From Rhodobacter sp. TJ_12 (lineage in GTDB: Bacteria; Pseudomonadota; Alphaproteobacteria; Rhodobacterales; Rhodobacteraceae): DNA of 64,000 nucleotides. The position numbers were made by a program, and so were the translations under genes. A model generated the notes under the pieces. The model saw only the letters and a list, made by a program, of their open reading frames with translations, had not been told where the DNA came from and made no database searches. Below, one piece after another: positions 5,553 through 64,000 of the stretch (positions are counted from its first letter, which is position 1; each line of letters opens with the position of its first letter). The stretch lies in assembly GCF_020023995.1 (NCBI RefSeq), contig NZ_NRRD01000019.1:1-64000 (forward strand), written 5' to 3'.

Positions 5553-6341
5553 ATGACCGATCTGGTAGAGATGGAAAAACGTGGCGTCATCGCGCATCTG
5601 ACGCTGAACAACCCCGGCAGCCTGAATGCGCTGTCCGATGCGATGCTGGCCGCGCTGAAAGCCCGGTTTGAGGAAATAGCGGCAGATGCCACGGTCAAGG
5701 TCGTGGTGCTCAAAGGCGCGGGCAAAGTCTTCTGCGCGGGCCATGACCTGAAGGAAATGCAACGCGGGCGCGCAGCGCAAGATGGCGGCAAAGCCTATTT
5801 CGCCGATCTGTTCACCCGCTGTGCCGAAGTGATGCAAATGATCCCCGCCCTGCCCCAGCCGGTGATTGCCGAAGCCCATGGCATTGCCACGGCGGCAGGC
5901 TGCCAATTGGTGGCGTCTTGCGATTTGGCCATCGCCGCCGAGGGCACGCGCTTTGGCGTGAATGGCGTCAATATCGGGTTGTTCTGTTCCACGCCGATGG
6001 TCGCACTGACCCGCGCCGTGCCGCGCAAGGTGGCCTTTGAAATGCTGACCACCGGCGACTTTATCAGTGCTGAGCGCGCGCGCGAGGTGGGGCTGGTGAA
6101 CCGCGTGGTGCCGCATGCGGACTTGGAAGCGGCCAGCAGCCAATTGGCCGAAACGCTTGCCGCGAAACTGGGCGCGGCAGTCAAGATCGGCAAGCGCGCC
6201 TTTTACGAGCAAATCGAGATGGGCTTGGCCGAGGCTTACGCCCATGCCGGCGCGATCATGACGGAAAACATGCTTTACCGTGACACCGCCGAAGGCGTGC
6301 AGGCTTTCATCGAAAAGCGCAAGCCCGATTGGGCAGACTAG
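5553..6341 (+). CDS. enoyl-CoA hydratase/isomerase (crotonase) family protein
   Basis: 262-aa crotonase-fold protein with the oxyanion-hole segments AGHDLKEM and GIATAAGCQLVASCDLAIA. Start at 5553 with GGAGGA at ideal spacing. In the second active-site loop it reads NIGLFCSTPMVALTR. Canonical hydratases carry a Glu-containing PEI..G..PG pattern there, so hydratase activity is doubtful. The loop resembles the ECHDC3-like branch of the family. Divergent from a thioesterase, which suggests an acyl-CoA clean-up or degradation role (inference). Confidence 0.85.
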   Translation: MTDLVEMEKRGVIAHLTLNNPGSLNALSDAMLAALKARFEEIAADATVKVVVLKGAGKVFCAGHDLKEMQRGRAAQDGGKAYFADLFTRCAEVMQMIPALPQPVIAEAHGIATAAGCQLVASCDLAIAAEGTRFGVNGVNIGLFCSTPMVALTRAVPRKVAFEMLTTGDFISAERAREVGLVNRVVPHADLEAASSQLAETLAAKLGAAVKIGKRAFYEQIEMGLAEAYAHAGAIMTENMLYRDTAEGVQAFIEKRKPDWAD

Positions 6342-8984: not shown

Positions 8985-9994
8985 TTCATGACCGTCGGGA
9001 TGCAATTGGCCCCTTCGGCCACCAGCGCGGCACAGAATTGGCGCGCCTCATCGACATTGGCAAAGCCCTCGACCCGCAGCCGCCAGAAGCTCCGCCCGCC
9101 AGAAATCGCCTCTTGCACGATGCGCCGCTTGCCGATCATCAACGCATCGAAGCGGCGCATGGCACGATCCCATTCCGCCCGCGCAATCTCGGGGCTGTCA
9201 AAGGCTCCCAATTGCACAACGCGGGTGCCCGCAGGCACCTCGGCGGGATCCAATTCCTCGACCTCCGCTCCGTCCGCTTGCGCGCGCGCGGCGGCAGCCG
9301 CTTCGGCCTGCAAATCGCGCGCAGGACGCGGCACCGGGCGGGGGGAGCGGGCAAGCCCCGGCACATCGGGCGAAATGATATCTTCGGGCGGCACAGCCGC
9401 CTCTTCTTCCGGCGCGACGGCCTCGGCGGGCTCTTCTTCCAAAATGTCTTGCATCGCGGCGGCCACCGCCGCTTCGATCCCAGGTTCGGGGGCGTCGGCC
9501 CTATCTGGAGTTGGGGCGCCCTCTGGCGTCGGGCGCGCACGATCGGGCACCGGCAGCGCGGCAATATCTTCGCCTTCGGCCTCGACCTCGGGGGTCGCCG
9601 CCTCTTCGGGTGGCGCGATCTCGGGGAGCGGGCGCAAAGCAGCCATCGGCGCATCATCGGGGGCCAGATCGGTCGGCTCGGGCGCCAAAACAACGCGGTC
9701 CGGCCCCGGCGCGGCCAAGCCCGAGCCCGCGACTTCGTTCACCGCCAAACCGACATGAGCCGCCAGATCGCCGCCGGGATTTTCCGGCGCAACCCGCGCC
9801 GGCCCCTCCATCGCGCGGATGATCGGCACGCCTGACACATCGCGCACCGCCAGCTTGTAGCCCCAGATCACAACCCCAATCACCAGCGCAACCGAACTGG
9901 CCGCGCCAGCCCATTGCACCCAGCGTTGCATCGGGGGCGCGCCCCCGCCAGAGCCGTCATTTGGCCCGCCCATCCGGGGATCGGGTTGTTGCAT
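8981..9994 (-). CDS. SPOR-domain membrane protein
   Basis: 337-aa bitopic protein: a short cytoplasmic N terminus, one transmembrane helix at about residues 29-48, a long Pro/Ala/Glu-rich linker (about 70-255), and a C-terminal SPOR domain (about 258-337, starting GTRVVQLGAFDSPEIARAEW). SPOR domains bind denuded septal peptidoglycan, so a cell-division or envelope role is expected. The low-complexity acidic linker should span the periplasm. Start at 9994 has AGAGGCG upstream. First gene after argS, 58 bases away. Confidence 0.88.
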   Translation of the reverse strand: MQQPDPRMGGPNDGSGGGAPPMQRWVQWAGAASSVALVIGVVIWGYKLAVRDVSGVPIIRAMEGPARVAPENPGGDLAAHVGLAVNEVAGSGLAAPGPDRVVLAPEPTDLAPDDAPMAALRPLPEIAPPEEAATPEVEAEGEDIAALPVPDRARPTPEGAPTPDRADAPEPGIEAAVAAAMQDILEEEPAEAVAPEEEAAVPPEDIISPDVPGLARSPRPVPRPARDLQAEAAAAARAQADGAEVEELDPAEVPAGTRVVQLGAFDSPEIARAEWDRAMRRFDALMIGKRRIVQEAISGGRSFWRLRVEGFANVDEARQFCAALVAEGANCIPTVMK

Positions 9995-54454: not shown

Positions 54455-54902
54455 CGAAACGCCTTGTCGCTCCTTTAAGGCGAAAGGAGAAAATACATCA
54501 ATTTAACCATAAATGGGGGACCGATGCTGACCGGGGGGGACCAATCCGCAGTTTGCAGTTGCCTCGCTCTTCAAACGAAAAGCTTTGGTGCCGGCGGAGG
54601 GTTTGCGTTTTTTGGTTTGTTTCCCGTTACAGGCACCGCGTCAGCCATTTGCCTCAGCAAAACAAGGGCTAACGCCATCGGCGGGGGTAGGTCAACAGGC
54701 GTCGTCTGTTCTACGATTTGTTCTACGCCAGCCGAACGGGGCAGACCCGGGGCCAGGCTGGAGCGGTGGTGTCGTTTCCCGCGCCAGCCCTTCACGCCCC
54801 AAGCCGTGAGATTTCCGAGCGCCCACCCCCACCGGGGGGAAGCGACCATCGCCTAATAAGGGGAAGGCGCTCAGATTTTTGACCCCAAAACCTCCGGGGT
54901 CT
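54455..54902. other. left boundary region of the accessory island, no gene recognised
   Basis: Several short overlapping ORFs occur in both directions without ribosome-binding sites or recognisable products. It contains the nine-base sequence TGTTCTACG twice (54,707 and 54,719) and an ACCCC...GGGGT hairpin just after the helicase stop (about 54,879-54,899). The junction between core genome and island should lie here; I could not identify an attachment site. Confidence 0.45.
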
Positions 54903-56786
54903 TTATCCACCGGGCGGGACCACCGGGCCAAACATCGGCTGGAAGGCATCAGCGCCCCGGCTGGCGTGGATCTGCACCCGCTGCAGGTTCCGCCGCGCCA
55001 ACTCAGCGGCAACATCAGGATGGCGGCACAGCCGGTTGAAGTTGGCCCGATCCGCTATGCCAAGCCCTGCCATCAGATCCGCGAAGAAGATCGGAGCGGT
55101 GGGGTCTTGGTGTCGGCTGGCGTCGATCAAAGCGATCAGCTCCTTCTGCTGCCGCCCTTTCAGCGGTTTGTTTTGCTGTTTCCACGGCTTCACCCTTGCA
55201 CCTGGAAAGGTGGCTTGCAGCAGCGCCTTGGTCTTCTTGCCTGGGGCGATGATGTAGAGATCGCAAGATGGGCAGCGCCCCTCTTTGCAACCGCGCACCC
55301 GGCCACGCCCTGCCGCTTGCAACACCGCATGGGCAAACTCACCCACCTCGATCTGCGCGACAGCGTCAGCTGGAAGCTCTGCCGTGATGGGAAGCCCCAG
55401 GCTCGCATGGGCCAAGCCGATGTGCTGGCTCTCGGGCAGGCGCATGACACCGGCCAGGATCACGTTCTCCACATCGCGGAAAGCGTTGGTCGCCATATGC
55501 CGCCCCCAATGCAGAAAGCTGACCCGGCTGGGGTCGGTGGTGATGAAGCGCTTGATCAGCTTGACCGGCTGCACCCCGCCCGGGGCCAAGTGATGCACGA
55601 CCAAGAAGCGCTGATCGGGCTTGCTGTCGATCACGGCGGCAACCTCTCGGGCAAGCCGCTCCCCGTCTTTCTGCCAGCTTTGCTTGCCTGCGCCCCGCTC
55701 CATCAGGTGGATGGTCAGCGCCCCGTAGTCCTTGCGGGCACCGGGCAAAAGCCTTGGCCCTCCCGGTTGCTGTCGCCAAAGCGCCCATGTGCCGCGCACC
55801 GAGGCCGAGGCATCGAGCACAAGCGCCGGGGCGAAGTCAGCAGGCAGGCTGTCTCGGATGTCGAGCGCCATACGCAGCTTCCCGCTGCCGTTGCAGATCT
55901 TCACCACCTTGCCAGACAGGGCGTAAAGCCTGGCCAGGGGATCTTGGACCCCATCATCGACCTGGGACACGGAGACCCGCAGGGAGGCCGGGATCTCGGG
56001 CAGTTGCACAAGCTGATGCGGTTTGGCGGTGGCGAGCTGCAGCTGGATCTTTGCAAGGGTATCAGCGAGATCAGTGTTGAGGCTGCGGATCGGGGCCAGC
56101 AAACCGCCCAAATCATCGGTCGAGAGCGTGACCACCTGTGCCGGGTCCATCGTCTCGTCCCAAACCCGCAGCTGGCGCGGTTGCCCGAGGAAGTGGAAGT
56201 CCCGGCACTCTGCCAATAGCCCAGTCCCGCACCGGCGCATCAGCATCTGAGGCGTGATGATCAGGATCTGTGCCTGGTCTGGTGGGGTCGATGTCGGCAA
56301 GGCGCGGTCAGGGTCCGACCACATCACCGCGATCTCTCCTTCCCCAAGACCCGTTTCCGTCACAAGACGCTCGATCTCATCCAAGAAGGGAAGACAGACC
56401 AGCACCCCCACCTCATCATGATCAGCTGCGCGAGCTAGGTGACGCAGAAACAGCGCCAAAGCCGTGGTCTTGCCCATCCCGGGGGCCAGGTCACAGACCA
56501 CCAGTTCAGGGGAGCAGCGCCCTTGCGCCAGAGCCGATAGCGTCGAGAGCAACGCTTGCAAGGCGGTCAGCTGTTGGGTGGTTGGGGCGAGATCCCGCCT
56601 CGTCAATTCCCTCTTCAGGTCTTCCATCACCGTGTCGATGAGGGAGGGGGACGGCGAAGTAGTCAAACTCTCACTATAGCTTAATGGGTTTTTGACCAGC
56701 TCAGGGAGGCTGGACGCATCAGCCGACAAGCCATCGCAAAAGTGGATAGCTGCGGCCTGGAAACTCAGGTCGTTCATGGTCTTCAT
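54903..56786 (-). CDS. SF2-type helicase of the accessory element
   Basis: 627 aa. Helicase-like motifs: Walker A APGMGKTT (101-108), a DE-containing Walker B in RVWDETMDP (about 210), LVLDASAS, and a motif-VI-like QAAGRGRVRG near residue 495, followed by a Cys cluster (GCKEGRCPSC) that could bind zinc or iron-sulfur. The C-terminal ~100 residues are basic. This arrangement suits a mobile-element replication or transfer helicase. I cannot assign a named family. A decayed copy of its 5' end lies at 61,934-62,131. Confidence 0.68.
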   Translation of the reverse strand: MKTMNDLSFQAAAIHFCDGLSADASSLPELVKNPLSYSESLTTSPSPSLIDTVMEDLKRELTRRDLAPTTQQLTALQALLSTLSALAQGRCSPELVVCDLAPGMGKTTALALFLRHLARAADHDEVGVLVCLPFLDEIERLVTETGLGEGEIAVMWSDPDRALPTSTPPDQAQILIITPQMLMRRCGTGLLAECRDFHFLGQPRQLRVWDETMDPAQVVTLSTDDLGGLLAPIRSLNTDLADTLAKIQLQLATAKPHQLVQLPEIPASLRVSVSQVDDGVQDPLARLYALSGKVVKICNGSGKLRMALDIRDSLPADFAPALVLDASASVRGTWALWRQQPGGPRLLPGARKDYGALTIHLMERGAGKQSWQKDGERLAREVAAVIDSKPDQRFLVVHHLAPGGVQPVKLIKRFITTDPSRVSFLHWGRHMATNAFRDVENVILAGVMRLPESQHIGLAHASLGLPITAELPADAVAQIEVGEFAHAVLQAAGRGRVRGCKEGRCPSCDLYIIAPGKKTKALLQATFPGARVKPWKQQNKPLKGRQQKELIALIDASRHQDPTAPIFFADLMAGLGIADRANFNRLCRHPDVAAELARRNLQRVQIHASRGADAFQPMFGPVVPPGG

Positions 56787-56934
56787 CTTGGTGGGTTTGG
56801 TGGAGATGCGTAATGTGGGGGAAAGCCAGGCCCGGAGCCTCGGCTCGACCCAGCAGCCTGCAAGCAGGTCTCACGGCATCGGCGGGGCATCGGGGAGCGA
56901 CAAGCGTCAGCCTGAAGCGATAGCTCGCAACAGC

Positions 56935-56959
56935 TACCCCCCACGATGATGCGTGGTCA
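56935..56959 (-). repeat. 25-bp repeat, copy 1 (upstream of the helicase gene)
   Basis: On the minus strand this begins TGACCACGCATCATCGTGG and ends GGGGTA. It is identical to 61,770-61,794 on the plus strand. Its core CCACG-CATCAT-CGTGG is an inverted repeat. It lies ~150 bases before the helicase start, so an operator or recombination site is plausible. Confidence 0.85.
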
Positions 56960-57319
56960 GTCAGTGGTCGGCATGGAAGACGAGGGGGCATAGCCCCTCA
57001 GCATGGTCAGCTTGTTCTCGGGATAAAGCCTGGTGAGCAGCTTGACCCCGTCAGCGGTCGGGCAGATCCCCCTGCAGCGACGCTTGTGATCATGGCCTTC
57101 GCGGAACAGATGCAGGAACTCCGGGCGGACACGGTACGGGCCGCTGATAAGCTTGGACGGTCGCCCCGCTGTGCCGGGAATGCGGAAGTCTCTAACTTTA
57201 GTCTGACTAAAGTTTGACAGGGCGTGCGTCACGTTCACGATGCCCAGCACGTAGCACACATCTTTGGCGACGAACCAAGGCTCACCCTCAAGCTCGATAA
57301 CGCGAAGGCTAATCTCCAC
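56957..57319 (-). CDS. second, partial BRO-N-domain protein
   Basis: About 120 aa if read from the GTG at 57,319 (the frame is open further). It repeats the start of the BRO-N domain (RVIELEGEPWFVAKDVCYVLG) and then diverges (SNFSQTKVRDFRIPGTAGRPSK) into an unrelated basic tail. Thirty-two bases (57,267-57,298) are identical to 57,697-57,728 in the first BRO gene. It is probably a truncated duplicate, possibly still expressed since it lies just after the stop of the first copy. Confidence 0.5.
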   Translation of the reverse strand: MEISLRVIELEGEPWFVAKDVCYVLGIVNVTHALSNFSQTKVRDFRIPGTAGRPSKLISGPYRVRPEFLHLFREGHDHKRRCRGICPTADGVKLLTRLYPENKLTMLRGYAPSSSMPTTD

Positions 57320-57329
57320 CTGATAGGCA

Positions 57330-57791
57330 TTAGACTTGGTGACGCGCTGAATCACGCTCAGCCCGCAAGCGCTCGATCTTGCGCTTCTGAACCTCAATGG
57401 CGCGAAGGACCAGTTCATCCTCGTCCATCTCCCCGGTGACCACCTTCTCCTCGCCCATGATGTAGCCACCGTCCTTGCGGATGGCGGGCAACACGGTGCC
57501 AGTGACCCAGTGCTGGAAGTCGAAGGCAGAAGGCTTGTCGGAGCACATGATCAGCTTGTAGAGGCCGCTCTCGCAGACGAGCTTGTTCGACGAACCGCGC
57601 TCTTCGGTGATCTTGAGGCGAATTACTTCAGTCGGACTGAGTTTATTCAGCGTTTCAGTCACGTTGGTCAGCCCCAGCACATCGCACACGTCCTTAGCGA
57701 CGAACCAAGGCTCACCCTCAAGCTCGATCACGCGGACAGCGCGGGAGCCAGTGGCGATGTGGTTGAAGGTGAAGCTGGTGATGTTGCTCAT
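57330..57791 (-). CDS. BRO-N-domain protein (phage antirepressor-like)
   Basis: 153 aa. The BRO-N DNA-binding domain covers residues ~5-110 (ATGSRAVRVIELEGEPW, FVAKDVCDVLGLTNVTETLN, VCESGLYKLIMCSDKPSAFDF, HWVTGTVLPAIRKDGGYI). A short charged helical tail (about 115-153) follows. Full phage antirepressors have a second C-terminal domain, absent here. Such proteins are typical of prophages and satellites. Divergent from the 105-aa gene at 57,962. Confidence 0.83.
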   Translation of the reverse strand: MSNITSFTFNHIATGSRAVRVIELEGEPWFVAKDVCDVLGLTNVTETLNKLSPTEVIRLKITEERGSSNKLVCESGLYKLIMCSDKPSAFDFQHWVTGTVLPAIRKDGGYIMGEEKVVTGEMDEDELVLRAIEVQKRKIERLRAERDSARHQV

Positions 57792-58279: not shown

Positions 58280-58536
58280 CTGGTGCGAGCGGAACGGCCC
58301 AAAGTGGCCTTTCGTTTGGTAATGCACCTAAGCAGCACCTGCCTGAAAGCGGACATTCATGCATAGTACCGCGTCATTCGTAAGGCGTTCACCTAGGTCG
58401 GATAGAGTTTGCTGTGCCCCAAAGTGCGTCTCCCTAGCCCGACGACCAAGCCGTTAGGTCGCATTCCGATCGCAGAATTTCACCCTATTGTAGATTACAC
58501 TTGTACCGTGACCTTCACCAAGCCGGACATCAGTGC

Positions 58537-59004
58537 ATGAATTTCTCACTAGATATAATTTACAATTGGGTCATAGATAATAAAGAATGGCTGTTTTCCG
58601 GAGTCGCGCTTCCACCTTTGTTTTTTATTGCAAAAGCAGGATCGGGGATTTTTCGTACAGAACGTGGCTTCAGCGGTTACTGGAACATTCTCGTTGGAGA
58701 AGAGGTTTACGGAGAAATGAAAATACGAACATTTGGTCCCATACTGCTCGGAAGCGCTAAAACAGCGGTAAAGCAGGCCGACGAAGGAATCAGGCGTCAT
58801 ATATATAAATATGTCGGACGAATTACACGCGATCAAGCAGTTCTAATTTTCAAGGAAGTTGATCAAGCAAACCGAATAGTGGGCGCCACTGTTCTCCGCA
58901 TGATGAGGGACAAGAATAAGATTAGCGGAAGGAACATCTATTGGCATCACGACAAAGGAGAAATATGTGACACAAAATTCGTTATGAGACGCCAGTTTGA
59001 TTGA
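58537..59004 (+). CDS. membrane-anchored beta-rich protein next to the NACHT gene
   Basis: 155 aa, clearly AT-richer than its surroundings. One membrane segment (about residues 15-35), then a region patterned like a small beta-barrel: FSGYWNILVGEEVYGEMKI, HIYKYVGRITRDQAVLIFKE, GATVLRM and GRNIYWHHDKGEI. The short membrane anchor plus beta-rich C terminus is reminiscent of Cap15-like membrane effectors of phage-defence operons; this is a fold-level impression only. Start at 58,537 used; no strong RBS seen. The NACHT gene begins 433 bases downstream. Confidence 0.55.
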   Translation: MNFSLDIIYNWVIDNKEWLFSGVALPPLFFIAKAGSGIFRTERGFSGYWNILVGEEVYGEMKIRTFGPILLGSAKTAVKQADEGIRRHIYKYVGRITRDQAVLIFKEVDQANRIVGATVLRMMRDKNKISGRNIYWHHDKGEICDTKFVMRRQFD

Positions 59005-59437: not shown

Positions 59438-61282
59438 GTGATCGAACTTAGTAGTGCAGCAGCCGTCGCCGTGAGCGCGGGGACAGCAAAAGCTATTGAA
59501 AAATCTACCGCCAGTCTCGTAGATAAAATCTCCCTCAAGTTCGTCAAGGACAAATTCGAGCAGATTAAGCTTTTGCTCGATAAGGGGTTGCCGACATATC
59601 TGGAGGCAAACTACGCGAAATGCGAAACGTTGAAAACGCTCCTGAACAGAAATGATCCTGTAGCACTTGAAGAGTGCTTTGTTGCGCCAGATTTCAGAAT
59701 GAAAGGAAAGACGACGCCCTCAAACGATTTCCTAGACAATGTAAATAGAGAGGGAGCCAAAGTCATCATCACCGGCCTTGCGGGTAGCGGCAAGTCTGTT
59801 TTCTTGAAACATGCCTTCCGCCAAGTCATTGAGCGTGGGCATACTTACTACCCGGTTTTTTTCGAGTTGAGGGCGCTAAATCGAGCAAGCGAGAAGAAAG
59901 GCTTACTCCTTTCACAGCTGTACGAGTCAATTCGCGAGTGCTGCGATTCCTTTACGAGAGCCCAGTTCGACTATGGGCTTAAGTCTGGTGCCTTCTACCT
60001 ATTGCTGGACGGCTTCGATGAACTCAACCAAGACATTCGCGAGCAGATTTCAGACGAGATAAACGGACTGGCAAGGAGCTATAGTAAGTGTGCTATTATT
60101 GTTACAAGCCGCCCGTCCGACGATTTTGTTTCCTGGGAAGGCTTTTCGGAAGCAAGGCTCTTGCCTTTCGATTTGGGAAAAGTCGTCGAGTACATCAAGA
60201 AACTTAATTTTGACGAGGAGAAGAAGTCGGATTTCCTTTCCGACTTGGAATCGGGAGTTTTTGAAAGCAACAAGGACTTCCTATCAAACCCGCTGCTTTC
60301 TGCAATGATGCTTCTCACATACGATTCCTTCGGCGAAATTCCAGAGAAGCGCCATATTTTTTATGCAAAGTGTTTCGACGTTTTGGCGAGAGAGCACGAC
60401 GTGTCAAAGGGCAGGTATAAGCGGGAGCTCTTTTCAAGCCTATCAATGGACCAACTAGAAAGAGCGTTTATGTTCTTCTGCGCGCTTTCCTATGTGGAGA
60501 GGACGTTTTCATTTAATGATGAGCAGATGGCTACCTTTGTAGGCGAAGCTATCGCCTCATGTGGGATTGAGGCCGAGGTTGCGGACGTCATACGTGATTT
60601 TAGGGAGGCAATCTCCATTATGGAGCGTGTTGGATTGCTCTACGAGTTTGCGCACCGATCCTTCCAGGAGTATTTTTATGCCAAGTTTGTAACCGTAGAT
60701 AGAAAACTCTCTCTTGAAGAAAAGATCGGCTGGCTCACGGAGACCTTCAGGTCGGACGATACCATTGAGATGATTGCCGATATGGACCGCACCTACTTCG
60801 AAGACGAGTTCCTCTTGCCGAATGTCGAGCAGATGGTGAAGAAACTTTCAACCGTTGATCCAACGACAAATCCAGCAGGTATATTGTCGAAGTTTTTCTC
60901 TCTTGTCCAAGCCACCACAAGACACAACGAAAACGGGGACGAGCAAGAGAAGTCCACCGCCTATGTACAAAGTGACGGCTCCGCAACCTTCTTAATGACA
61001 CAGGCCCTTCGAAAATACTATGACGAATACAGTGAGGAGATGAAAGCGTGTTCATCTGTAGAGGAGAGGCAGGCAGAAGACAACGTGGCAATCCTCGAAA
61101 AAGAGTTTGGCGGTGAGATAAAAATTCACCACACCAACAACGCCAAACTCCTCAGGATCGAAGCACATTTATTCGCTGCGCACATAAAGCACGGAATCTC
61201 GTGCCTCCACGAACACCTACTGAAAAAGCAAGAAAAGCGAAAGCGCGGCTTGGGGGCCTTGATCAAGCGAAAGTACTCGTGA
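59438..61282 (+). CDS. NACHT-domain STAND NTPase, putative anti-phage defence protein
   Basis: 614 aa, AT-rich relative to the chromosome. N-terminal helical region (about 1-105; SSAAAVAVSAGTAKAIEK, then a segment with LPTYLEANYAKCETLKTLLN) resembling NACHT N-terminal helical modules. NACHT ATPase: Walker A GLAGSGKS (113-120), Walker B LLLDGFDE (188-195), sensor Arg in VTSRPS, and the winged-helix motif HRSFQEYFYAKF (406-417). There is a short C-terminal region (~190 aa) and no leucine-rich or TPR repeats. This fits short bacterial NACHT proteins with anti-phage activity. GTG start with GAGGT eight bases upstream. No nuclease domain recognised. Confidence 0.85.
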   Translation: MIELSSAAAVAVSAGTAKAIEKSTASLVDKISLKFVKDKFEQIKLLLDKGLPTYLEANYAKCETLKTLLNRNDPVALEECFVAPDFRMKGKTTPSNDFLDNVNREGAKVIITGLAGSGKSVFLKHAFRQVIERGHTYYPVFFELRALNRASEKKGLLLSQLYESIRECCDSFTRAQFDYGLKSGAFYLLLDGFDELNQDIREQISDEINGLARSYSKCAIIVTSRPSDDFVSWEGFSEARLLPFDLGKVVEYIKKLNFDEEKKSDFLSDLESGVFESNKDFLSNPLLSAMMLLTYDSFGEIPEKRHIFYAKCFDVLAREHDVSKGRYKRELFSSLSMDQLERAFMFFCALSYVERTFSFNDEQMATFVGEAIASCGIEAEVADVIRDFREAISIMERVGLLYEFAHRSFQEYFYAKFVTVDRKLSLEEKIGWLTETFRSDDTIEMIADMDRTYFEDEFLLPNVEQMVKKLSTVDPTTNPAGILSKFFSLVQATTRHNENGDEQEKSTAYVQSDGSATFLMTQALRKYYDEYSEEMKACSSVEERQAEDNVAILEKEFGGEIKIHHTNNAKLLRIEAHLFAAHIKHGISCLHEHLLKKQEKRKRGLGALIKRKYS

Positions 61283-61769
61283 CGTACTGGGAGTGAGCAT
61301 ACTATAGGTAACTTAAATAACTGTGAACACTGCGCATTTGAGCGAATGCCTCAAATCACTGGCGCATGCCGACACTATTGAATTGGCGTCAATGTCTGTC
61401 TGGGGCTGCCCGCTCAGTTTTTCAAAGGTTGCTACCTTCACATTGCTACCATTGACGCTACTCGCAGCGAACGTCCGCTCCCCGCCCACACGAGACCGAT
61501 TGCCCTTCGCGATCAGATTGGCTGCGGCTAGCTGAATGCCCGAGTGATTGGGCGATGCAAGACCCGCCTCTCAGCGGCCCGGAGAGAGTCCTCAGGCGAC
61601 CACCTCGTCTCTGGCAGGGGCAAACCCCGACTAACATACTTCGCGCTCTGAGGGGGCTCCCAGCGCCTCTCAATTGGGTGCCACCATCAGAGCAAAAAAA
61701 CGCTCTGGGGGCCTCTCTGGGGTAACTGCAAGCTCAAGCCGAAGCTGCCGTTCCCGCCTTCCTTGCCAA
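61283..61769. other. non-coding stretch after the NACHT gene
   Basis: I see no credible gene, RBS or terminator here. Composition shifts back from AT-rich to GC-rich around 61,450, which probably marks the cargo boundary. Confidence 0.4.
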
Positions 61770-61794
61770 TGACCACGCATCATCGTGGGGGGTA
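61770..61794 (+). repeat. 25-bp repeat, copy 2 (upstream of the helicase pseudogene)
   Basis: Identical to 56,935-56,959 but in the opposite orientation; contains the inverted repeat CCACG-CATCAT-CGTGG. It precedes the decayed helicase 5' fragment at about the same distance (roughly 200 bases) as copy 1 precedes the homologous part of the intact gene. Confidence 0.85.
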
Positions 61795-61933
61795 AGGGGG
61801 GCATCTGGGGATGCAGCTCAAGCCCATTAAGGGGTAGCTATAGCTATAGGCTTAGCGCTTCTCCCCGCACTCTGTCTCCCCTCGTCCCAACCCATTGAGC
61901 TATCAAGCCTCGTTTATCAGCTATGGCGTCTAG

Positions 61934-62131
61934 CTCCGCTTCCCAAAGACCCATTTCCTGCTTTGGTGTGGCGATGCTGCTGAAGCGTCCAGTCTCCCCG
62001 ATCTAGTCAAAAACCTGTTGAGCTATAGTGAGAATTTGACCACTTCCTGTCCCCTCAATCTCACCAATCTGGGTATGGAAGACCTGATGGGGGTGATGTG
62101 GCAGGGTCTCGCCTCAACCACCCAGCCATGA
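61934..62131 (+). pseudogene. decayed 5' fragment of the accessory-element helicase
   Basis: In the frame of GCT at 61,976 the DNA reads AAEASSLPDLVKNLLSYSEN then LTTSCPLNLTNLGMEDL. This matches residues ~21-57 of the intact helicase at 54,903-56,786 (SADASSLPELVKNPLSYSES, LTTSPSPSLIDTVMEDL). A TAG precedes it at 61,931, a TGA ends it at 62,129-62,131, and no start codon or helicase motifs remain. It is a diverged, truncated copy in inverted orientation. Confidence 0.82.
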
Positions 62132-62516
62132 AGCACACGGCCAGCGTTGATCTTCTAGCGACACCCAATGCGGTGAGGTCTTCTGGCTGAGGCCGTTAGG
62201 GCGATCTCCTCAGCGGGTTTGATCGTGTGGGGATGGGGGAGGTCTATCGCCCAAGACCCACCCCAAGATGCGCTTGCCAGCGTGTCGCTTCCCTATGGTC
62301 TTCATCGTCAGCAAAGCTGATGCTTTGGCTCAGTGTTTCGCTGCGCTGTCGAAGCCTGAGTTCCAAGCCTGAGCTTCCCTCTCTTATAGATACTGATGAC
62401 GCTTTTGGGCGTCGTTGTCCCTCTCCCCCTCCCTGCATCCCCACCTTCCCTCAAGCCGTGTTGACGGTCTTGGGGCTGTGTGTCGTGGCGATCAGGCCCA
62501 ACCTCTCCATCCCCCC
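62132..62516. other. non-coding region upstream of the zinc-ribbon gene
   Basis: No supported gene. It includes a -10-like TATAGAT near 62,388 and a small hairpin GACGC-TTTTGG-GCGTC at about 62,399-62,414. Transcription of the downstream gene may start here, but a matching -35 is not obvious. Confidence 0.35.
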
Positions 62517-63014
62517 ATGAACACAAGCACCTGCCCACAATGCGGGACGGTCTTCCCGTTTCGCAGCAACAAGACCTTTTGTTCGGCCACCTGCCGCAAG
62601 CTGAACGCCCAGCGCAAGAAACGCGCAGCCTGCCCCGTCAATGCAGCCCACAGCCCCGAGACGAAGCGGGAACAATCCGACACCTTCGATCTCGCCATGC
62701 GCTTGGCAGAAAGGCTTTATACGCTGCCGCCATCGCAGCGGCTTGGCTACATGCAAACCCTCATCGAGGAAGCCCGCAGCGGGGCCAGCCCAAGGTTGAG
62801 GCGGGTCTTGACCATGCCCAAGCTCTTGCGGGCCAGCCGGGAAGACAGGCACTTGTTCTGGCGGCGCAGCCCCGAGAGCTACCGCACCATCGCGCAAGCT
62901 GCAGACCGCTATTGCCGCAAGTTCTGGGGTGCAGGTGTCGTGGCCGTGGTGCGCGGGAAGGTCCCTGAGCCGCCCACGGGGGAGGTTGACGGCAGCCTCT
63001 CGCTAGCGGCGTGA
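62517..63014 (+). CDS. small zinc-ribbon protein of the accessory element
   Basis: 165 aa. N-terminal C2-C2 ribbon: Cys6, Cys9, Cys22, Cys26 (CPQCGTVFPF ... KTFCSATCRK), as in small zinc-finger proteins of phages and integrative elements. The rest is charged/helical with LAMRLAERLYTLPPSQRLGYM, a segment also seen in element-borne hypothetical proteins. No good RBS before the ATG, so the start is uncertain. Convergent with, and overlapping by 12 bases, the truncated integrase reading frame. Confidence 0.6.
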   Translation: MNTSTCPQCGTVFPFRSNKTFCSATCRKLNAQRKKRAACPVNAAHSPETKREQSDTFDLAMRLAERLYTLPPSQRLGYMQTLIEEARSGASPRLRRVLTMPKLLRASREDRHLFWRRSPESYRTIAQAADRYCRKFWGAGVVAVVRGKVPEPPTGEVDGSLSLAA

Positions 63015-64000
63015 CTGACCGGGATGTTTTGGGGGCAAAATTCTGAGAGGCCTATCCTTATGAGGGGAGGAAGCGGTTTCCCCCATACCGGGGGGGGGCA
63101 AGGGCTGGGCACGATAAGAAACATCACCAGCTTCACCGACGACAACATTACTACTGGCCCCCGCGCTGTCCGCGAGATCGAGCCGGAGGGTGCCGGTGTT
63201 GTAACGAGGGAAGGCGAAGGGGCTGCCTTCGACCCGTGCATGGATGCGCTGTGCGGCCCAAAGCGCCATCCCGACCAAAGGCACGACCCGCGAAGAAGAG
63301 TTTGTCTTCAACCTGCGCCAGGGATGTTCGCGGATCACCACATGGGGGATCGCCGCGTCGAGCTTCAGATCTTCCTTGAGTAGACCCGCGCCCTCGGCCA
63401 AGCGCATCCCGGTGTCAGACACCAGCGCCACCAGCCAACGCAGATCATCGTCGAGTTTGCGGCACTCGCCTTGCACCTTGCGGATATTCTCAAGCGGGAT
63501 CGGTGCTCGATCAGAAACGCCCGCGTTGCGGTCGTAATAGACCTTGCCGAACGGGTTGTTCATATCAATGCCGACTTCGCTTGCCGCAAAGTTGATCACC
63601 GAGCGCACGGTGCCGAAGATCCGCGTGATGCTGCTGCCGGTCAGCTTGCGCTTGAGCAGGGCATCACGGAAGGCGTTGGCATCGGCTTTGGTGTAGGCAG
63701 TCAGATCCTTGTCGCCACAGACATCAATGACGTAACCGCAGGACCGCTCCGCGCCCCGGTGGAAGGTGATGGGCCGACCCTGACCTTTCAGCCGCAAATA
63801 AATGCCGACTGCTTCGGAGAGCTTCACCGTTTCCGACGCGGCGGGCGCTGGCGTTTGTGGCGCGAGGGGGCTGTTCGAGGCCGGGGCCAGCCGCAACAGA
63901 TGCTTCCCGGGCAAATCGCTGTCTTGAAGCCGAAGGTGATACCAATGCTCGTCGAGGCGTTGCGCCGCACGAATAGCCCGCGCTGCAGCCACAGAAGCCG
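63003..64000 (-). pseudogene. tyrosine recombinase/integrase, 3'-truncated; 5' end outside the window
   Basis: The frame is open through the right edge, so the N terminus lies beyond it. The SAM-like core-binding domain (SEAVGIYLRLKGQGRPITF and on) and the first half of the catalytic domain are present, including the first catalytic Arg in DTGMRLAE. After FAFPRYN (about 63,200) the frame continues into the reverse complement of a BRO-N gene remnant, giving an unrelated tail. The HxxR and catalytic Tyr motifs are missing, so it should be inactive. Confidence 0.72.
63119..63192 (+). pseudogene. remnant of the BRO-N gene 5' end
   Basis: On the plus strand this reads NITSFTDDNITTGPRAVREI then EPEG, matching the first ~30 residues of the BRO-N protein at 57,330-57,791 (NITSFTFNHIATGSRAVRVI, ELEG). 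The match ends abruptly at ~63,192, exactly where the antisense integrase loses family similarity, so this is a recombination junction. Confidence 0.78.

Follow-up and report, generated by a model that had tools for sequence, protein, structure and literature searches.

What does a short NACHT protein do in the bacterium that carries it, and which of its parts would do it? Clade-14 bNACHT proteins are described in PMC12169576 as blocking both DNA and RNA phages, yet they have no visible effector. The same question is raised by a gene in a 64,000-nucleotide stretch of DNA from Rhodobacter sp. TJ_12, which we refer to here as the window. A preliminary description, made from the letters alone, had taken this gene for AT-rich cargo of a mobile element and for a candidate anti-phage gene. 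We consider it probable that the gene encodes a single-gene anti-phage protein, a defensive role that we infer, and that it is a short bNACHT of the SNaCT type, similar to clade 14, carried as cargo by a degraded island at a tRNA-Thr gene.

The NACHT gene

The gene and the parts of its product are as follows.

59438-61282, forward strand: bNACHT (NLR-related) gene, 614 aa with a GTG start; N-terminal helices, NACHT NTPase, winged-helix/helical region and short C-terminal region
59438-59752, forward strand: N-terminal helical segment, residues 1-105, candidate effector; residues 1-40 are poor in the model (block mean pLDDT 35-52)
59774-59797, forward strand: Walker A, GLAGSGKS, residues 113-120
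59999-60022, forward strand: Walker B, LLLDGFDE, residues 188-195
60653-60676, forward strand: HRSFQEYF motif, residues 406-413; the aligned place in NLRC4 reads HKSFQEY
60893-61108, forward strand: hypervariable segment, residues 486-557, candidate sensor cassette
61109-61279, forward strand: C-terminal helix and basic tail, residues 558-614, kept in the close relatives L057 and L058

A GAGG sequence ends 8 nt before the GTG start codon. The single promoter-like site is not above the number in shuffled sequence (mean 1.9), and none of the six terminator-like sites (3.4 +/- 1.6 in shuffles) is clearly placed.

The protein had been described as having complete NACHT motifs, which is borne out by the presence of Walker A, Walker B and HRSFQEYF. 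The HMM search that had been proposed as a check places the Pfam NACHT family PF05729 on residues 109-255 with E=9.9e-11 and 42.2 bits, above the cut-off of 26.7. A NACHT domain above the curated cut-off together with Walker A and B is one mark of a bNACHT protein, and the window protein has both. The tripartite arrangement of the class can also be seen in the structural model, as layout only, with helices at residues 5-63, NACHT from about residue 106 and a C-terminal region at 424-614.

The statement that there is no recognisable nuclease effector or repeat sensor also held: no nuclease, TIR, protease or repeat family scored above cut-off in Pfam or NCBIfam, and no effector family did so in Pfam, PADLOC or NCBIfam. 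PADLOC returned just two weak Csx3 matches at E<=1, while NCBIfam gave partial matches to the NACHT-bearing anti-phage proteins DS8 (1.6e-9) and EruA (6e-6), both far under their cut-offs. The Pfam family SNaCT8 aligns with residues 449-528 at 15.0 bits, well under its cut-off of 27, but the missing SNaCT match says little because bNACHT12, a member of the class, itself has no Pfam SNaCT match.

The island and its content

The gene had been placed in a phage-like island, which can now be given limits. A tRNA-Thr(TGT) gene lies at contig positions 64192-64267 on the reverse strand (L017, 9193-9268), 192 bp past the end of the window; within the window ARAGORN finds no tRNA gene. The first 16 nt of this gene on the forward strand, which are the 3' end of the tRNA, have an identical copy in direct orientation at 54586-54601. 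This repeat has a BLAST E of 0.003 with a 190-nt query, and by our own arithmetic the number expected by chance in 74 kb, both strands, is about 3e-5. On the left flank, similarity to the genome G967 stops at 54515 (L039, L048). On the right flank, L050, L053 and L054 become similar precisely from 64192 onwards, and in the other three loci similarity starts at 64130 (L049), 64311 (L051, which has a separate short tRNA match) and 64385 (L052). The repeat copies and the limits of flank similarity together set both ends, giving an island that spans 54586-64207 (9622 bp), with its right end just outside the window. The following features belong to it.

54586-54601, no strand assigned: left attachment-site repeat, 16 nt shared without a mismatch with the tRNA-Thr(TGT) 3' end; its second copy is at contig 64192-64207, outside the window
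54903-56786, reverse strand: P-loop protein of the island backbone, 627 aa; 45% identical over 580 columns to a Ruegeria sp. TM1040 protein that adjoins a BRO gene
56935-56959, forward strand: arm 1 of a perfect inverted repeat of 25 nt (partner 61770-61794), within a longer degenerate inverted duplication around the NACHT gene
56957-57469, reverse strand: second, partial Bro-N gene (Pfam match)
57330-57791, reverse strand: Bro-N anti-repressor gene, 31% over 121 to Bro-N in Ruegeria sp. TM1040
58501-59004, forward strand: orphan ORF of 167 aa, GC 0.43, with a hydrophobic N-terminal stretch (judged by eye); 433 bp upstream of NACHT on the same strand
61770-61794, reverse strand: arm 2 of the inverted repeat (partner 56935-56959)
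63003-64000, reverse strand: tyrosine integrase, 375 aa, running to 64130 beyond the window; unrelated sequence stands in place of the C-terminus, without the HxxR...Y part

Further content comprises a 199-aa protein and two small ORFs. The integrase remnant matches phrog_1 (E=1.7e-23); its lost C-terminus was sought by motif across the rest of the island and was not found. The sequence into which the integrase C-terminus passes is Bro-N-like and read on the other strand. On either side of the NACHT gene, at 56609-57791 and 61566-63192, the start of the 627-aa gene and Bro-N are duplicated in degenerate, inverted form.

The base composition of the gene had been said to be unlike that of the chromosome, and this agrees with a GC of 0.477 (GC3 0.57) for NACHT, where the part of the window to the left of the island has 0.636. 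The island backbone has GC values of 0.63 (P-loop), 0.60 (integrase) and 0.58 (Bro-N), and therefore the NACHT gene is foreign to both the island and the host. The island is a degraded integrative element at tRNA-Thr and the NACHT gene is its cargo.

No clean empty site for the island was found in the comparison with G967. In that genome the left flank and tRNA-Thr are separated by 39 kb, and a sampled 4.9-kb piece of this interval matches another contig of the host (G000:C12:12744-17615). Because of this 39-kb gap and the match elsewhere, we place the left end of the island (54500-54600) at a chromosomal rearrangement or an assembly join.

On the megaplasmid of Ruegeria sp. TM1040 (L067, 6235-9025) a P-loop gene of the 627-aa type and a Bro-N gene are adjacent, near an integrase and an AlpA-like regulator, and the pair lies inside a type I restriction-modification cluster. 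The P-loop/Bro-N pair may be a mobile backbone of Rhodobacterales that carries interchangeable defence cargoes, although two cases are not proof of this.

Relatives of the gene and their genomic setting

Within its genus the NACHT gene is present in one of 18 genomes, its own, and in 0/17 of the others. Counting its own genome, there were matches in 4/295 genomes of the family (E<=1e-10) and, at E<=1e-15, in 4/390 of the order, 5/385 of the class and 3/398 of the phylum; these four samples overlap. A scan of genome contigs with the single NACHT protein as query gave no confirmed relative, and a second scan (query A2) gave five close relatives. These are L057 from a Rhodobacteraceae MAG (62% identity, residues 1-613), L058 from an Alphaproteobacteria MAG (61% identity, frame interrupted; the same locus as G948:C194), L059 from Paracoccus sulfuroxidans (42%; the same locus as G351:C9), L060 from Pacificibacter marinus (40%, without residues 1-64) and L061 from a Pseudomonadales MAG (50% over residues 1-150, where the frame ends, 124 bp before the contig end). 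Three of the five (L058, L060 and L061) are not intact, whereas L057 and L059 run from residue 1 or 8 to 612-613. In L060 (77-1500), transposase-like ORFs end just upstream of the shortened NACHT frame, which was probably cut by an insertion element, and a tyrosine integrase that looks intact when read from its translation lies 0.4 kb downstream.

More distant relatives occur on 210 plasmid records and three phage records. Scans of viral contigs added one weak fragment (L062) and one near-copy (L063) of the Vibrio phage locus L016, and with three other queries they gave no confirmed relative. On the Agrobacterium plasmid pAspH13-3a (L013, 7908-17332) a NACHT gene adjoins an ATP-binding protein/RloB pair, TIR and SIR2 genes, a neighbourhood that is likely to be a defence cluster.

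A tRNA gene lies within 3 kb of NACHT in four of the six close loci, the window included. The nearest are tRNA-Thr in the window (2.9 kb), tRNA-Leu-CAA at L057 (0.17 kb), tRNA-Tyr at L059 (1.5 kb) and tRNA-Cys at L061 (0.3 kb); none was found within 3 kb at L058 or at L060, where the left side covers just 1.5 kb. Among 15 more distant NACHT loci the count was 0/15; seven of these loci are plasmid-borne, which weakens the control. Neither L057, next to its tRNA-Leu, nor L061, next to its tRNAs, showed an attachment repeat.

In P. sulfuroxidans a putative 3.7-kb island at tRNA-Tyr (L059, 5696-9406) is bounded by 21-nt repeats (5696-5716 and 9386-9406) and holds just the NACHT gene, a 109-aa ORF and a resolvase-like ORF.

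The description of the gene as mobile cargo is borne out by the attachment-site repeats, tRNA target and integrase remnant of the island, by its presence in a single genome of the genus and by relatives on plasmids, on Vibrio phage records and beside tRNA genes. Orthologues found consistently in a core-genome context had been named as evidence that would count against it; only one of the five, L058, has neither a tRNA nor a recognised mobile gene near NACHT. The island shows a bNACHT gene moving through tRNA sites in Rhodobacterales.

Predicted fold and the variable segment

Structure prediction, which had been suggested as a further check, was informative for the central body of the protein and much less so for its two ends. 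An AlphaFold2 model built from eight rows had a mean pLDDT of 73.9 and a pTM of 0.53, with the first 40 residues poor. The best match among solved structures was NLRC4 (4kxf_B, Z 24.9, rmsd 3.8, 374 residues aligned over model 42-601), followed by NLRP3 and NOD2. The model supports a closed NACHT/winged-helix body with a fold like that of autoinhibited NLRC4. A search of viral folds gave as top match the NLR-named A0A8S5V3T3 (E=1.7e-8, TM 0.31 by query); below it came mainly ATPases, clamp loaders among them. Modelled alone, the C-terminal region (424-614) reached a mean pLDDT of 69.1, with block means of 43-61 over 494-543, and its best match in the PDB was at Z 5.8 (4mh6) with no row at 8 or above, which neither shows nor excludes a known fold.

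At the N-terminus, a test for amphipathic helices gave p=0.076 for the window protein and p<0.05 in seven of 16 proteins, a test that any packed helix can pass; the set did not include L058 and L060, whose N-termini could not be used, or L014 and L021, which are broken. These values hint faintly at the N-terminal helices as a candidate effector.

The one unusual feature of the window protein, a fast-changing stretch with sharp limits, lies near the other end, and the sequence alignments suggest that it is a candidate sensor cassette, at residues 486-557. Identity to L057 is 50% over residues 1-54, 67-77% over 55-420, 62% over 421-485, 16% over 486-555 and 64% over 556-614. For the C-terminal piece the values are 69, 14 and 58% between the window protein and L058, and 61, 15 and 52% between L057 and L058. 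The lowest 70-site stretch is 486-557 with 11 matches, where block shuffles average 28.8 and 0/10000 reach 11. The phrog_18297 match likewise ends at residue 483, just before the variable segment. In all eight pairs of short NACHT proteins compared, conservation over the stretch 77-150 residues past the HRSFQEY anchor was lower than in the NACHT part and lower than in the 70 residues that follow; in five of the eight it was lower, too, than in the N-terminal and last-45 segments, some of them with few sites. The conserved tail behind the variable segment was seen, among the proteins compared, only in the group formed by the window protein, L057 and L058.

In the conserved segments (55-485 and 556-614) pN against L057 is 0.16-0.23 and pS is 0.62-0.96, so that these segments are under purifying selection. 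Synonymous sites are mostly saturated, which makes a dN/dS test unusable and means that point divergence and cassette exchange at 486-557 are inseparable. Orthologues about 62% identical that differ most sharply in one 70-residue stretch would be a clean swap system for mapping sensing to phage.

How the protein may work, and alternative explanations

The published roles in this class are sensing by the C-terminus, oligomerisation and signalling by NACHT, and an effector at the N-terminus (PMC12169576). Applied to the window protein, this would mean that at rest the NACHT module is kept closed by the winged-helix/helical region and the C-terminal region. The C-terminal region, chiefly residues 486-557, would detect a phage product, for example coat protein, or a disturbance in some process of the host. 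Opening, which depends on ATP, would then let the protein oligomerise and bring together the N-terminal helices (residues 1-60), and these might halt or kill the cell before phage release. We take over this mechanism because of homology to the class, and it is the anatomy that the window protein itself displays; defence, the choice of sensing residues and the N-terminal helices as effector are proposals for this protein. A bolder version, to which we give a rather low chance, is that 486-557 is a replaceable sensor cassette between the conserved NACHT/winged-helix body and the basic C-terminal helix, and that it owes its diversity to cassette exchange or to very fast selection while the gene moves from one tRNA-borne island to another, so that every copy has its own phage specificity. 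In this version the effector that is missing from the class would be the N-terminal helices, acting on the membrane.

The NACHT protein could instead serve its own element, by excluding competing phages or plasmids or by controlling the island, and not host defence as such. We regard this as unlikely. Its location on an island would fit, as would the relatives on the 210 plasmid records and two Vibrio phage records, and anti-repressor genes share the island with NACHT. However, the close relatives do not have the same element genes: a tblastn search for a recurring accessory gene matched none of the seven island proteins in the four close relatives that it covered, L057-L060. Element-serving and host-serving defence are also compatible with each other.

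In favour of a decaying passenger that has lost its function, there is damage both on the island, with its truncated integrase, partial Bro-N gene and inverted duplications, and among the close relatives, with the truncated or interrupted frames of L058, L060 and L061. The window gene, however, has an intact frame across 614 codons with all motifs present, its conserved segments are under purifying selection against L057, and L057 and L059 are intact over nearly the same length. Loss of function is therefore improbable to our minds.

It is very unlikely that the upstream membrane-protein-like ORF at 58501-59004 belongs with NACHT to a two-gene system and supplies its effector: the two are on the same strand, AT-rich (0.43 and 0.48) and 433 bp apart, and NACHT has no visible effector, but relatives of the ORF were found in none of 379 other genomes of the order (its own was the sole match of 380), in no plasmids and beside none of L057-L060, viral contigs gave no confirmed relative, and the GC-rich spacer between the genes suggests separate arrivals, so that the ORF was set aside as a partner. 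A single-gene anti-phage protein carried by the island is the reading that we prefer.

Comparison with known systems

With animal NLRC4 and NLRP3 the window protein shares the NACHT fold, including the winged-helix region (Z 24.9 and 22.3; profile E about 5e-11 for NLRC4), but no leucine-rich repeats, CARD or PYD were found in it and the identity is 12-16%. When searched as a single protein against solved structures, phmmer gave no match, and a 16-row profile then found NLRC4 and NLRP3. Membership of Avs (AVAST) was rejected, since no Avs model matched and PADLOC gave the weak Csx3 matches only. With bNACHT25 and bNACHT32 of clade 6 there is a common tripartite layout centred on NACHT (PMC12169576), but theirs has an N-terminal PD-(D/E)XK nuclease and NCH1, neither of which was detected in the window protein. 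Clade 6 was also rejected, as no N-terminal nuclease family was found in Pfam or NCBIfam and the model shows two helices at residues 5-63.

Phage-borne counterparts of the N-terminal and NACHT parts exist in phrog_18297 (E=9.6e-87 over residues 10-483) and phrog_32986 (1.6e-28 over 25-464), but neither match extends beyond the start of the variable segment. Gene 23 of Vibrio phage 10N.286.49.B11_PE003, annotated 'NLR_like_bNACHT01' and carrying SNaCT11, is likewise a short mobile NACHT protein (26.6% over 474 columns); it differs in lying on a 14.8-kb Vinavirales record and not in a tRNA island, and the window protein has no SNaCT11 match. The SNaCT11 NACHT gene at L016 12520-14310 is near the end of a Vibrio Vinavirales record, an example of a phage-type element that carries an NLR-like gene of its own. 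SNaCT families are above cut-off in two relatives, L016 (SNaCT11, 3.7e-48) and L015 (SNaCT6, 5e-59).

Similarity to a phage-tested protein can be followed residue by residue, in line with the earlier assignment to the short bacterial NACHT proteins: the window protein is 25% identical to WP_021519735.1 (L029) over residues 111-594 (507 columns, E=1e-26), and WP_021519735.1 is bNACHT12 (PMC12169576). According to that source, bNACHT02 and bNACHT12 belong to clade 14, have SNaCT domains with no readily discernible effector, and protect against DNA phages and MS2-like RNA phages; MS2 escapers from both bear mutations in the coat protein, and bNACHT11 and bNACHT12 are independent of DnaJ. For clade 14 as a whole it likewise records no recognised effector. 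The N-terminal helices and short C-terminus had been thought the parts most likely to be new. As parts of the class they are not, because published clade-14 proteins share the layout (PMC12169576), but the C-terminal sequence is indeed covered by no Pfam family above threshold.

In a tree of 21 NACHT cores the window protein groups with L057 (100/99), then with L059 and L060 (100/99), and then with the Agrobacterium plasmid protein (97/96). Eighteen short NACHT proteins, the window protein and 17 others including bNACHT12, part from three others at 89/94, a split of moderate support that is not starred and has long branches among the three. L058, L061, L014, L021 and L063 were left out, and no known clade 6 protein was included. 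The window protein and bNACHT12 are on different branches of the short NACHT group. They differ in host lineage, at 25% identity and with C-terminal parts that align loosely, and the phage data are for bNACHT12 only, but they are alike in length (614 and 612 aa), in their NACHT and H(K/R)S(I/F)QEY motifs, in a short C-terminus with no visible effector and in a mobile setting, which for bNACHT12 is an E. coli IncF plasmid. On these sequence comparisons the window gene most likely belongs to the already known short bNACHT class, of the clade-14-like, phage-blocking type.
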